Assembly: GCA_004293485.1 (NCBI GenBank)
Contig: RDYW01000031.1
Location: 62,001 to 126,000, forward strand
Origin: Sphingobacteriales bacterium
GTDB taxonomy: Bacteria; Bacteroidota; Bacteroidia; Sphingobacteriales; Sphingobacteriaceae
Direction: 5' to 3'
Length of the DNA: 64,000 nucleotides
Shown: positions 5,294 through 9,497 of the stretch, piece by piece
Numbering within the stretch: the first letter of the stretch is position 1
Layout of the letters: the number at the start of each line of letters is the position of its first letter
Translations under genes and position numbers: made by a program
The notes under the pieces: model-generated
Seen by the model: the letters and a program-made list of their open reading frames with translations, nothing else
Database searches by the model: none
What the model was told of the DNA's origin: nothing

Positions 5294-6631
5294 CTATCGA
5301 ACTTGGTTTTGTAGCATCTCAATTGATACAATTTTTGTTGTTGTAGCACTAATCTTAAATCTATCATCGCTGCGGAGGCCACAAACCCAAATTATTTGGC
5401 CATTGCCGTTTACCAAAATGGGTGTTTCGGCTTTTTGGAAAACAGAGAGCTTTAGGTTGATAAAAAAATCGCTTACTTTTTTTTTGTTATTCATCCCGTA
5501 AGGAATAAAAACATCGCCTTGCTGCCAAGTGCGTAGGGTTAATGGGTAAATAAGTTTATCGGCATCAACAAAAAGAGTGTTTAAATTTATTTTTAAATTA
5601 TTAGGAACTTGCTTTAAAACAGCTTGGGTAAAGCGTTTTTCTATAAAAAAAACTTCGCTACTGCTGGGCTCAATATTAATTGTAGTTGCTGGGGCAGTTG
5701 TTATTGGTTTGATAATGATATTTTCCCTATCTAAAACCAACTGGTGTGTAGCCGAAAAAAACTGCCTGCCCGAATGTTTTTTTAAAACCGACACCATATT
5801 GTTTACCGTAGTATTATTAAACCCAAAAGGGTTAAATAGTTCATAAATAATTAATGGCTGTAATTTTTTTATTTCGTTTACGCTTACGCTGATGCTGGTA
5901 TGTTGGTAAACAAAAAGCTGATTTCGGATTTTTTCTACCTCTTGTTTCAAAAAACCTTCGAGTTGCGAAAAATAAGCTAGGTTGTTTTTAAATGTGGTTT
6001 CTAAAGCTGGGTTTAGTTTTTTTAGTTCAGGAATAACGGCCAACCTTATGCGGTTACGCATATATTTTGTGCTGGCGTTAGAGCTATCCTCCATGTAAGT
6101 GAAATTATATTGCTGTATAATTTGGGTAATTTCATCGCTGGTAAAGCATAAAAAGGGGCGAATTATATTAGCCCGATTTTGCGAAATACCGTGTAGGCCA
6201 GCAATACCTGTACCTCTAACTAGGTTAATTAAAACGGTTTCGATGGCATCGTTTTGGTGTTGGGCTATGGCAATTTTTTGGTAGTTGTATTGCTGCCTAA
6301 GTTGCTCAAAAAATTGGTAACGCAGGGTTCGGGCGGCCATTTGTATGCTTATTTTATGGGTAATTGCGTAGGTAAGGGTATCAAAATTTACGAAATAAAA
6401 GGGCACCTGCAAACTATCGGCCAGGGCTTTAACAAAACTTTGGTCTCGCATGCTTTCATCGCCCCGCAGGCCAAAATTGCAATGTGCAATGCCAAAATTG
6501 TAGCCCGCTTGTTTAAAAAAATGTGCCATAAGTACCGAATCTTTACCGCCACTTACGCCCAGCAAAACCTTATCGCCTTTGGCAAACAAGTAATTTTGTT
6601 GGATAAAATTGGTAAAACGAGTTAAAAACAT
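5294..6631 (-). CDS. tilS: tRNA(Ile)-lysidine synthase TilS
   Basis: An ATP-dependent enzyme that converts C34 of the tRNA(Ile) CAU anticodon to lysidine, which changes its charging and decoding to isoleucine; it is normally essential. The 445-residue product has the N-type ATP pyrophosphatase P-loop SGGKDS at residues 27-32, followed by a family-typical region (HCNFGLRGDES, AIAQHQNDAIET). The C-terminal part has the TilS substrate-binding layout, ending near a PYGMNNKKKVSDFF segment. It starts only 6 bp after the yoeB stop, so it now forms the last gene of a yefM-yoeB-tilS transcription unit. Its first about 22 codons are duplicated upstream of yefM (7374-7443), which indicates that the toxin-antitoxin module was inserted at the tilS start. 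Confidence 0.95.
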   Translation of the reverse strand: MFLTRFTNFIQQNYLFAKGDKVLLGVSGGKDSVLMAHFFKQAGYNFGIAHCNFGLRGDESMRDQSFVKALADSLQVPFYFVNFDTLTYAITHKISIQMAARTLRYQFFEQLRQQYNYQKIAIAQHQNDAIETVLINLVRGTGIAGLHGISQNRANIIRPFLCFTSDEITQIIQQYNFTYMEDSSNASTKYMRNRIRLAVIPELKKLNPALETTFKNNLAYFSQLEGFLKQEVEKIRNQLFVYQHTSISVSVNEIKKLQPLIIYELFNPFGFNNTTVNNMVSVLKKHSGRQFFSATHQLVLDRENIIIKPITTAPATTINIEPSSSEVFFIEKRFTQAVLKQVPNNLKINLNTLFVDADKLIYPLTLRTWQQGDVFIPYGMNNKKKVSDFFINLKLSVFQKAETPILVNGNGQIIWVCGLRSDDRFKISATTTKIVSIEMLQNQVR

Positions 6632-6635
6632 GTTT
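6566..6635 (-). repeat. 70-bp direct repeat, copy A (functional tilS 5' end)
   Basis: The first codons of tilS together with four bases ahead of the ATG. It matches copy B at 7374-7443 at 67 of 70 positions by my alignment; differences are at 6569, 6576 and 6620. Together the copies bracket the yefM-yoeB module in direct orientation, with a repeat unit of 808 bp. Confidence 0.9.
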
Positions 6636-6637
6636 TT

Positions 6638-6922
6638 TTATTCATCATAATGAAACCTACATTGTACAATAATACATTTTTGATTTAAGCCTTTTGTACC
6701 CGTAATTTGATACACCAAGCGGTGTTCGCCAGTAATTCGGCGAGACCAAAAACCTTTTAAATTATATTTTAATGGTTCGGGTTTGCCTAAGCCATTAAAT
6801 GGTGTTTGCTTAATAGATTTTATGAGGTTTCTAATTTTAACCGTAACGCTTTCATCGTTTTGTATCCAATACTCAAAATCTTCCCAACCTTTGGGAGTAA
6901 ATTCGATATTCATTTTAAACAA
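6638..6922 (-). CDS. yoeB: Type II toxin YoeB (Txe/YoeB family mRNA interferase)
   Basis: A 94-residue RelE-fold endoribonuclease that in studied homologues cleaves mRNA in the ribosomal A site. The family signature is very clear: [18 protein letters not shown] followed by [12 protein letters not shown] and a C-terminal CRFHYDE that carries the catalytic His-Tyr pair. Translation probably starts at the second Met ([10 protein letters not shown]), which fits family length better, although the first Met overlaps the antitoxin gene by 8 bp. It is directly downstream of its antitoxin and 6 bp upstream of tilS. All residues expected for an active toxin appear present. Confidence 0.93.
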
Positions 6923-7190
6923 TAACTAAAGCCTCATCCTCAAAGGTGTAAGGAATATTATTACCACTATTTATTTGTTTGATAGATGATTCTAACCGGT
7001 TACGGTTAGCCACAGTTGATAATAAATGTGCTGTTTCGTTAAGCGAATTGTACTCTTTTATAGAAATTATTACCACCGCATCGTTCTCGTTATTATTACG
7101 AGGAACTACCACAACATCATCGTTACTACTTACGGCATCTAAATAGGTTTTCATATTGTTACGCAAAGCGGATATAGTTATAGCTTTCAT
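6915..7190 (-). CDS. yefM: Antitoxin of YefM/Phd family
   Basis: A 91-residue antitoxin that pairs with YoeB. The N-terminal DNA-binding part ([20 protein letters not shown]) and the following strand with [16 protein letters not shown] match the Phd/YefM fold; the C-terminal tail is the likely toxin-neutralising segment. Members repress their own operon by binding operator sites at the promoter. The gene overlaps yoeB by 8 bp, as expected for coupled translation. Upstream, at 7191-7225, the sequence contains repeats of TGTACA/TTGTAC character (tgtacagttaattgtacaaacaaatgtacg) that could be the YefM operator; this is an inference. Confidence 0.92.
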
Positions 7191-7193
7191 ATT

Positions 7194-7228
7194 TTATATG
7201 TACAGTTAATTGTACAAACAAATGTACG
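7194..7228 (-). promoter_or_regulatory. Candidate YefM operator/promoter
   Basis: Immediately upstream of yefM are three TGTAC-containing half sites (in tatgTACAg, ttgTACAaa and atgTACgt contexts) within about 30 bp. YefM of E. coli binds TGTACA palindromes in its own promoter, so the match is suggestive. No footprint or promoter assay is available. Confidence 0.5.
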
Positions 7229-7373
7229 TTTTTTTACTTAAATTACTTTTTTGAACAAAATTTAATGCTATTAAAGCTAAATAAAGCAATTTTTTAATGG
7301 CATGTTAGGGATGCGGTTTAATTGGATTGAGTTTAACAAAGAGTGTTGCGTGAGGACACGCACCACAGCGGTG

Positions 7374-7443
7374 AACTTTATCGGCTTTGGCAAACAAGTA
7401 ATTTTGTTGGATAAAATTGGTAAAACGGGTTAAAAACATGTTT
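7374..7443 (-). repeat. 70-bp direct repeat, copy B (tilS 5' fragment)
   Basis: A near copy of the tilS start in the same orientation, including an ATG at 7437-7439. Read on the minus strand it encodes about 22 TilS-like residues (MFLTRFTNFIQQNYLFAK...), then diverges into unrelated sequence and stops within about 25 further codons. A small hairpin (TGCGTG-agga-CACGCA, 7347-7362) lies just beyond the point of divergence. It is a remnant of tilS left on the far side of the TA module, next to the presumed original tilS promoter that would share the 47-bp gap with the divergent OstA-like gene. Confidence 0.88.
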
Positions 7444-7490
7444 CAAAAATAAACCTTTAAAATGGTTAGCAAAAAAGTAATTTTACCACC

Positions 7491-9497
7491 GTGAAAAAAC
7501 TGTTGCTCGTTTTCTTTATTTTAAATTCGGTAATTGGCTTTGCCCAAAAAATTACAAGGGTAAATTTGCTACAATCCGAAAGTTTTATTGGTATAAAAGT
7601 AAACGGCAAAAACACCCAAAAGGTTATTAAACCTGTTTTTAGCCAAGATAATGCCACCCTAATTTGCGATAGCGCATTGTTTTATATCGAAAAAAATAGT
7701 TTCGATGCTTTTGGAAATGTGCACATTAACCAAGCCGATACCATTAATATTTATTCGGATTTGTTAAACTACAATGGAAATACCAAAATGGCAATCTTAA
7801 AAAACAATGTGCGTATGATTGATAAAGACGCTGTTTTAACCACCAACGATTTAGATTACAATATGCAAACCAAAGTAGGCCATTATTATAATGGGGGTAA
7901 AATTATAAACGGCGATAACACGCTTACCAGCACCAATGGTTATTATTTTTCTAACTCGAGGGATGCTTATTTTAGGTATAATGTAAAAGTAAAATCGCCC
8001 GAGGCGCTTATTTTATCGGATACTTTAAAGTACAATACCCAATCTAAAATCGCCTACTTTTTTGGCCCTACCAATATTTATGGTAAAGATGACACCCTTT
8101 ATACCGAAAACGGGCAGTACAATACCCTTACCAATCAAGCCGCATTTGGCAAGCGCAACCTGTACCGCCAAGGGAGCAAAAGCCTAAAAGGCGATAGCTT
8201 ATTTTATGATGGTAAAGCGGGTTATGGCAGGGCAGTAAAAAATATTTTATTTAAAGATACCGCCCAAAAAATAGAGTTGCGTGGCGATTTAGGCCTTTAT
8301 CGCAAAAAAGACGAAAGCATAGAAGTAACCAAAAATGCCTTTGTAGTTATAGAATCCGAAAAAGATTCGGTAACCAAAGATAGCATGTACCTAACCGCCG
8401 ATACCCTAAAAAGTAGGGTGCTGCGCAAAACCGAACTCTACAAATTAAAAATAAAAAACGAGGAAATAAACACCGCTTTAATAGCCGCTAGCGAAAAAAA
8501 AATAGACTATAACGATGCCCCGCAAAATGATACCGAGCCTTTAACAACCAATAAAATAGCTATCGATAGTATAAAAACCAAAACCATAAAAGATAGTTTA
8601 ACAATATCAAAACCCAAAAATGCAGATACGGTATTGCTTACAAAACCAAAGCAAATTTTACCAAAGCAAAACCTAAAACCAAGCCCCTTAAACATACAAT
8701 TGGTAGTGCTTGCGCCCAACATAAAAACAGCAATACCCAAGTTAGAAATTATAAATAAAAAAAAGCTAGGTATTAAAGCTATTGAGTTAAAAACCAATAA
8801 CATAATTACTGCCATAAAACCACCCTTACCGCCCGAAGCTAGCGATACCACAAAAATTAGGGTGTTAAGTGCGTATAAAAAAGTAAAAATTTTTAAATCA
8901 GATTTGCAGGCTGTGGCCGATTCGGCATTTTTTAGCTACGGCGACTCGGTATTGCGTATTTATCAAAAACCTATGTTGTGGGCGCAAGGAAGCCAAATTG
9001 CTGCCGATACCATGTACCTACAAATGAAACATAAAAAGGTAGATAATATGGATTTAATAAAAAATGCCATTATTGTAAACACCGAAAAAGATTCGCTTAC
9101 CTTTAACCAAGTGGCAGGCAAAAAAATGAAAGGTTATTTTGTAAAAGATAAGCTCGACCGTGTTTTTGTAGATGGCAATGCCGAAAGTATTTATTTTCCG
9201 CAAGATAGTGCACAAAAAGGAAGCATGCTACGCACCATAGCTGCCCGCATGCGGGTTAATTTTGCAAAAGATAGCCTAAAATCTATTTTATGGATCAGAA
9301 AACCCGAGGTAAAAGTTTATCCCAAAGAAAAACTTACCGAAGAGCTTAAAACCTTATCCAATTTTAGTTGGAAACCTAAAGATAGGCCAATATCTAAAGA
9401 ACAAATTATACCATCGTTACGCAAAGCGATTGTAAAACCTAACGTAAAAAAAACGAAAACACCTTTGGCCAAGCCTAAAGTTGCCGTAAAAAAGTAA
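7491..9497 (+). CDS. OstA/LptA-like LPS-transport periplasmic protein
   Basis: A 668-residue exported protein with signal peptide (MKKLLLVFFILNSVIGFAQ, cleavage after about residue 19). The start is GTG at 7491. The body shows the repeating strand pattern of the OstA N-terminal/LptA domain, with recurring phrases such as ALFYIEKNSFDAFGNVHI, TDTLKYN-like and GYYF. LptA bridges lipopolysaccharide from the inner membrane to LptD. It is far longer than E. coli LptA (about 185 residues), and a K/P/T-rich, probably disordered stretch at about 340-460 separates two OstA-like portions; Bacteroidota OstA-like proteins are generally long. It ends with a lysine-rich tail and overlaps the 3' end of rdgB by 23 bp in convergent orientation. 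Confidence 0.8.
   Translation: MKKLLLVFFILNSVIGFAQKITRVNLLQSESFIGIKVNGKNTQKVIKPVFSQDNATLICDSALFYIEKNSFDAFGNVHINQADTINIYSDLLNYNGNTKMAILKNNVRMIDKDAVLTTNDLDYNMQTKVGHYYNGGKIINGDNTLTSTNGYYFSNSRDAYFRYNVKVKSPEALILSDTLKYNTQSKIAYFFGPTNIYGKDDTLYTENGQYNTLTNQAAFGKRNLYRQGSKSLKGDSLFYDGKAGYGRAVKNILFKDTAQKIELRGDLGLYRKKDESIEVTKNAFVVIESEKDSVTKDSMYLTADTLKSRVLRKTELYKLKIKNEEINTALIAASEKKIDYNDAPQNDTEPLTTNKIAIDSIKTKTIKDSLTISKPKNADTVLLTKPKQILPKQNLKPSPLNIQLVVLAPNIKTAIPKLEIINKKKLGIKAIELKTNNIITAIKPPLPPEASDTTKIRVLSAYKKVKIFKSDLQAVADSAFFSYGDSVLRIYQKPMLWAQGSQIAADTMYLQMKHKKVDNMDLIKNAIIVNTEKDSLTFNQVAGKKMKGYFVKDKLDRVFVDGNAESIYFPQDSAQKGSMLRTIAARMRVNFAKDSLKSILWIRKPEVKVYPKEKLTEELKTLSNFSWKPKDRPISKEQIIPSLRKAIVKPNVKKTKTPLAKPKVAVKK

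Follow-up and report, generated by a model that had tools for sequence, protein, structure and literature searches.

The window analysed here is a stretch of 64,000 nucleotides of a Sphingobacteriales bacterium (contig RDYW01000031.1, positions 62,001 to 126,000). As presented in Table 1, it carries a complete tilS gene lying behind a yefM-yoeB pair, a second and truncated tilS start on the far side of that pair, and an ostA-like gene as the native divergent neighbour. The two domains of the YefM-YoeB family are encoded side by side with the antitoxin gene first, and on the basis of Pfam domains and gene order the genes are predicted to form a toxin-antitoxin (TA) pair, with a putative RNase toxicity and its neutralisation. 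The inverted repeat upstream of yefM is its probable operator/promoter.

Table 1. Features around tilS in the window (coordinates from the first letter of the window).
Feature	Position	Strand	Basis
tilS, complete, 445 aa	5294..6631	-	Pfam ATP_bind_3 4.6e-47; TilS_C 2.1e-9
Inner tilS-start copy, within the complete gene	6566..6635	-	Repeat comparison; differs from the outer copy at 3 positions
yoeB toxin gene, 91 aa	6638..6913	-	YoeB_toxin PF06769, E 1.5e-33
yefM antitoxin gene, 91 aa	6915..7190	-	PhdYeFM_antitox PF02604, E 2.1e-17
yefM upstream region, TGTACA-type inverted repeat	7191..7239	-	By eye; homology with genome G006 ends here
Stretch separating the TA unit from the outer copy	7240..7373	.	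Dispersed palindromic repeat at 7347-7373
Outer tilS-start copy, 22 codons + 4 bp	7374..7443	-	Aligned with native G016 sequence
Native tilS-ostA intergenic region, 51 bp	7440..7490	.	Promoter-like boxes
ostA-like gene, native divergent neighbour	7491..9497	+	OstA_2, E 4e-61

The two tilS starts form a direct repeat of 70 nt at a spacing of 808, which brackets yefM-yoeB and is identical at 67 of 70 positions (96%), the three differences falling in tilS codons 4, 19 and 21. The inner copy belongs to the complete gene. The outer one is a remnant whose 22 codons continue in frame into a 44-aa ORF (7305-7439) with no Pfam match, and alignment with the relative G016 showed that it is contiguous with the native tilS upstream region. 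Only 6 bp separate the yoeB stop codon (6638-6640) from the tilS ATG (6629-6631). These observations confirm a reading made earlier from the sequence alone, which had described the two copies around the pair, the complete gene at one and the dead fragment at the other, and tilS directly behind yoeB. No integrase was found in the 808-bp unit, and yefM and yoeB are the only recognisable genes among its ORFs. We searched 396,605 bases of the same genome (the window and 20 other stretches, about 18% of the genome) for direct repeats no shorter than 35 nt, with 80% identity or more and a spacing of up to 9 kb. Five repeats passed this filter and the tilS pair was the sole one above 90% identity, no similar bracketed unit of that identity being present elsewhere in these bases. 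The tilS repeat pair therefore exceeds chance expectation.

We compared the locus in a group of four genomes of 2.2-2.8 Mb, namely that of the window (G000), G016, G006 and G004, which were grouped by their TilS proteins; these share 64-94% identity with that of the window, all others reaching at most 54%. The nearest relative among the genomes compared, G016 (TilS 94% identical), has an empty site, with tilS and ostA directly divergent and no cargo between them. The same plain divergent arrangement was observed in 13/13 other genomes of the genus with both genes on one locus (G010 was not judgeable), and a by-eye reading of two family-wide tables found tilS and ostA as neighbours in most genomes. 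Comparing the tilS upstream regions of relatives, as the sequence-only reading had advised, thus revealed empty sites in G016 and in all 13 judgeable genomes, and bears out its proposal of an insertion at the tilS start. A second tilS start is present in the three group genomes other than G016. The empty G016 site could itself be a product of loss by recombination between the repeats. The G016 assembly breaks precisely at the tilS-ostA boundary (end of C134, start of C184), as if the sampled population varied at this point. The two contigs overlap by exactly 99 bp, which span the start of tilS, the intergenic region and the start of ostA. We also observed that the palindromic repeat TGCGTGAGGACACGCACCAC... 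at 7347-7373 is dispersed in these genomes. With up to 3 mismatches allowed, there are 2 copies in G000, 8 in G016, 2 in G006 and 0 in G004, and a reversed-pattern control gave 0 in each genome; the sites outside the window are at G000:C31:25239, on C91, C31, C17 and C129 of G016, and on C24 and C154 of G006.

A related yefM-yoeB pair was found in G006, with 87% DNA identity over window positions 6638-7239. It sits elsewhere in that genome, directly behind a PDDEXK_2-family nuclease gene, and no direct repeat of at least 25 nt brackets it within 1.5 kb; G016 has a counterpart of this locus without the pair. The homology between the window and G006 stops at the yoeB stop codon in both genomes, and the common part is therefore the bare operon of about 600 bp. 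A target-site duplication of 25 nt or more, as a transposon might make, does not accompany each insertion, the G006 unit being free of repeats of this length over the 1.5 kb. The nuclease gene in front of the G006 pair (L096 / L145, G006:C200) is one which we take to be Rpn-like, and related DNA occurs in all four group genomes, most commonly in G006.

The sequence-only reading had also called for a search for other yefM-yoeB units flanked by repeats. We collected 58 loci, some of them overlapping (L034-L091), as matches of the DNA query or of YoeB with 1.5-kb flanks, and a bracketing repeat of at least 25 nt was found in 4 of them: that of the window (L062), one in a region of tandem repeats (L043), one with a match of 29 nt (L051) and one with a different repeat system, in G006 (L055). 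None supports a TA pair that travels as a repeat-carrying unit, and this candidate was rejected. In L055 (G006:C146:18794-21874), a 145-nt repeat occurs three times (117-261, 1285-1429 and 2070-2214; 100, 88 and 99% identical to the first), its copies separating a 312-aa ORF and another yoeB-type pair in a cassette-array-like manner. No YefM relatives were found on scanning viral contigs, and PADLOC at E 0.001 gave no match for YoeB, YefM or the AlbA_2 protein of G004 described below.

In G004, the tilS-ostA boundary holds a gene for a 552-aa protein with SLFN_AlbA_2 and HATPase_c_4 domains, which is the sole long ORF of a 2004-bp unit with no integrase. The repeat around it consists of 93 perfect bp, from tilS codon 9 to ostA codon 5, and of 44 bp at 80%, at a spacing of 2004 bp. 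The perfect part takes in non-coding DNA and five ostA codons, and the full intergenic region is retained by both tilS and ostA. In G006, a 21-codon tilS remnant stands in front of ostA, and the complete tilS lies on another contig, adjoining gnd; gnd is found on tilS-free contigs in G000, G016 and G004. Because the G004 site is duplicated around an unrelated gene and the related pair of G006 has no bracketing repeat, the duplication belongs to the site and not to the toxin pair. The same two observations, with the lack of an integrase, speak against the earlier idea of a unit that carries its own gene end in the manner of islands at tRNA genes, and the site appears to be a local hotspot of recombination, not a novel type of mobile element. 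Since assemblers fail at repeats, the four genomes are drafts of 89 to about 220 contigs, and the contigs of G016 break at this very site, we considered an assembly artefact. This is highly improbable, as the window copies differ at three positions within a 145-kb contig and the independent G004 structure, with other cargo, lies inside a contig of 107 kb.

We analyzed the promoter-like boxes of the boundary using TAnnTTTG, which the excerpted text of PMC9723704 gives as the -7 consensus of flavobacterial sigma A. Across the 13 other loci of the genus, this box points toward tilS in all 13, and in 11 of them one also points toward ostA, immediately ahead of the ostA start. In the window, the tilS-ward box is TATTTTTG with an upstream TTTTTTG, and a tilS-ward TAnnTTTG is present throughout the group. 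Toward ostA, only TAATTTTA, with one mismatch to TAnnTTTG, was found in the window, G016, G004 and G006; the exact box being missing in the group, the case for a shared promoter is at its weakest in the very genomes that call for it. A candidate ostA promoter within the tilS coding region (TAATTTTG at 7399) was present in G000 and G016, absent from G004 and G006, and was not relied on. The two genes share about 50 bp with promoter-like boxes both ways, and insertions that leave a second copy can therefore keep both genes expressible. If both promoters do lie in these 50 bp, any insertion that failed to duplicate the region would leave one of the two genes without a promoter.

The window has retained the old tilS promoter region, which lies at about 7445-7480, upstream of and co-directional with yefM-yoeB-tilS. 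A simple scan of 6500-7600 found no terminator, a weak result in that shuffled sequences would give 0.9 by expectation, and the layout suggests that yefM-yoeB-tilS may be co-transcribed. The sequence-only reading had placed tilS behind the toxin gene and removed it from its old promoter. The first part stands; as to the second, the promoter region has been kept and is still directed toward tilS, across the remnant and the TA operon. It had further suggested that the consequences of losing the pair between the repeats might help to fix it. This proposal was not supported, because recombination between the repeats leaves tilS with its native upstream region, and a clean loss of the pair looks harmless to tilS.

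To place the group in the family, we used tables of 151 genomes each, with tilS detected in 149 and ostA in 148 at the cut-off, from which enlarged or broken boundaries were picked by eye, without a machine tally. Eight genomes not belonging to the group had an altered boundary (G067, G142, G138, G156, G113, G124, G100 and G020). The tilS start was duplicated in 0/8 of them, seven being compared with themselves and G020, whose genes are on two contigs, across contigs with G006 as positive control. Duplication is therefore not obligatory, and the promoter rule, if real, is not general. In G142, of another genus, a Fic-family gene stands between tilS and ostA (L114, G142:C1), bracketed by a 39-nt repeat of other sequence at 85% (1553-1591 / 2591-2629). 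In G156, a tandem repeat at about 1029-1487 fills the enlarged intergenic region (L116, G156:C21).

If an integrase had acted at a core at the distal end of the repeat, the copies would match best at that end. In G004, identity is complete for 27 nt from the ATG and for at least 60 nt upstream of it, and is then 15/24 over nt 30-54; in G006, it is complete for the first 33 nt and then 19/24 over the same stretch. The window copies are near-identical throughout, differing once in codon 4 and once each in codons 19 and 21, and the trend from the ATG to the distal end is therefore weak there. The identity in G004 and G006 is thus highest on the ATG side, yet short identical patches of 17 nt (G004) and 9 nt (G006) also occur distally, on a conserved tilS stretch. 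The TATCG[CG]C of this stretch lies at or slightly before the end of each of the three remnants, whose distal ends differ (21, 22 and 27 codons). The patches and this common neighbourhood of the ends may mark a short attachment core and are what a site-specific integration by an island-type integrase restoring the tilS 5' end, with only the cargo now left, could have produced, and its layout, with a new 5' end on the gene and the old one as a remnant, is that of the dusA islands in the excerpted text of PMC4482086. We nevertheless consider such an integration very unlikely. Neither the 808-bp nor the 2004-bp unit encodes an integrase, the identity falls before the distal patch, two of the three differences between the window copies lie in the last 12 nt, and the remnants do not end at the same nucleotide. 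In addition, no recombinase was seen by eye among the longer ORFs of five altered family loci (L113, L114, L115, L119 and L120).

The complete tilS of the window was then compared with that of G016. Codons 19-73 differ at 20/165 nt, against 4/54 in codons 1-18 and 27/1068 in codons 74-429, and this clustering was reached by 0/5000 permutations (0/3000 for synonymous changes alone). It suggests that a stretch of tilS may have come in with the cargo, as a homologous anchor at one end. Alongside this tract, ostA also contains patches below 90% identity to G016 (at 7751, 8411-8521 and 9181-9456), so that the divergent tract may be unrelated to the insertion, and the relative-rate counts for G000 vs G016 are uneven, 12 vs 5 with G006 as reference and 10 vs 9 with G004. 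At the other end the join is non-homologous, the outer copy running into unrelated sequence beyond codon 22. The two window copies agree with each other throughout codons 5-18, including states that G016 lacks, and a later gene conversion must therefore be assumed if a homology arm was used.

We propose that the tilS-ostA boundary acts as a local hotspot of insertion and rearrangement in these four close genomes, where cargo would enter by recombination with tilS-start homology on one side and a non-homologous join on the other. The route would be homology-facilitated illegitimate recombination, the donor DNA probably coming from a relative in which cargo already stood beside tilS; the homology arm is suggested by the divergent tract. 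The outer 22-codon remnant would then be the resident tilS start and the inner copy the one joined to the cargo, and the apparent cargo-borne repeat would be the overlap of resident and incoming tilS starts.

The identity of the window copies over codons 5-18 would also be expected from a staggered-break or replication duplication, in which the repair of a break across the boundary took up unrelated DNA and left a long target-site duplication with no tilS arm brought by the cargo, or if a tandem duplication had come first and received cargo between its copies. The perfect 93-bp repeat of G004, with its non-coding DNA and ostA codons, resembles such a duplication of resident DNA, and G006, too, has two copies of the boundary after its rearrangement. 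However, duplication by itself explains neither the divergent outer codons of G004 (15/24) nor the divergent tract of the window tilS, and we consider this origin rather unlikely. A single ancestral insertion-duplication in the group, followed by exchange of cargo through the shared flanks and by loss between the repeats in G016, is less probable still and in our view quite unlikely. It would account for the second tilS start in three of the four genomes, for remnants of 21, 22 and 27 codons and for the G016 site as the expected loss product. However, the remnant ends differ, the sequences beyond them do not align, and the inner ends also differ (4 bp, about 35 bp, and into ostA codon 5).

Under recombination at a hotspot, the products would survive since tilS and ostA share about 50 bp that may hold both divergent promoters. 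After insertion, the whole region would stay with ostA, and tilS would keep a copy of its own in G004 and G006; in the window, tilS would be read through from the TA operon and the old promoter. Overall, we hold this account, with insertion at a hotspot by recombination and products kept through the shared promoter region, as our tentative explanation, with a chance somewhat below even. The tilS gene is held to be essential, and the account offers a route by which a TA pair without a mobility gene comes to precede such a gene, the duplication belonging to the target, a compact divergent promoter region, and not to a mobile cargo. A broader proposal, which we regard as unlikely, is that compact bidirectional promoters of housekeeping genes are insertion hotspots for selfish or defence cargo, where only promoter-duplicating products survive, so that each gene gets its own copy and the cargo is trapped in an essential transcription unit. 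If this were true, the tilS-ostA boundary would serve as an example that has been traced, tilS having become part of a toxin-antitoxin operon, and, were the sharing of promoters real, the landing spots of small cargo between divergent housekeeping genes would be predictable.

Several known systems resemble this locus in part. As in other YefM-YoeB type II operons, the gene order, the Pfam families and a palindromic upstream region are found; in contrast to them, tilS is the next gene at 6 bp, the nearest copy is homologous only as far as the yoeB stop, and the window unit includes no mobility gene. Among the matches listed in the open-licence PMC literature (titles and abstract starts), no paper describes tilS as an insertion site, and the excerpted text of PMC8935386 names tilS solely for its being adjacent to, or a partner of, other genes. 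According to the excerpted text of PMC4482086, islands and prophages insert at the 5' end of dusA and supply a new 5' end, the old one becoming a remnant; they have a dedicated integrase and 21-bp attachment repeats, with putative promoters upstream before and after insertion. The tilS locus likewise concerns a tRNA-modification gene hit at its 5' end, with putative upstream promoters and with a new 5' end and a remnant in its layout, the inner copy presumably being the new one, but its units, with inserts of about 0.8 and 2 kb, have neither an integrase nor a constant end. For Vibrio cholerae, the displacement of T6SS effector-immunity modules has been proposed, in the excerpted text of PMC5361080, to be akin to homology-facilitated illegitimate recombination. 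Both cases would have a homologous anchor on one side, and they share an illegitimate join on the other and a part of the old locus that remains. In V. cholerae, however, the effector region is displaced and the immunity gene kept, whereas in the tilS case it is a housekeeping gene that has been rebuilt, with the sequence upstream of it duplicated. The tilS case is a variant of known gene-end-duplicating insertions, and by analogy its closest precedents would be the dusA islands for the layout and homology-facilitated illegitimate recombination for the mechanism.
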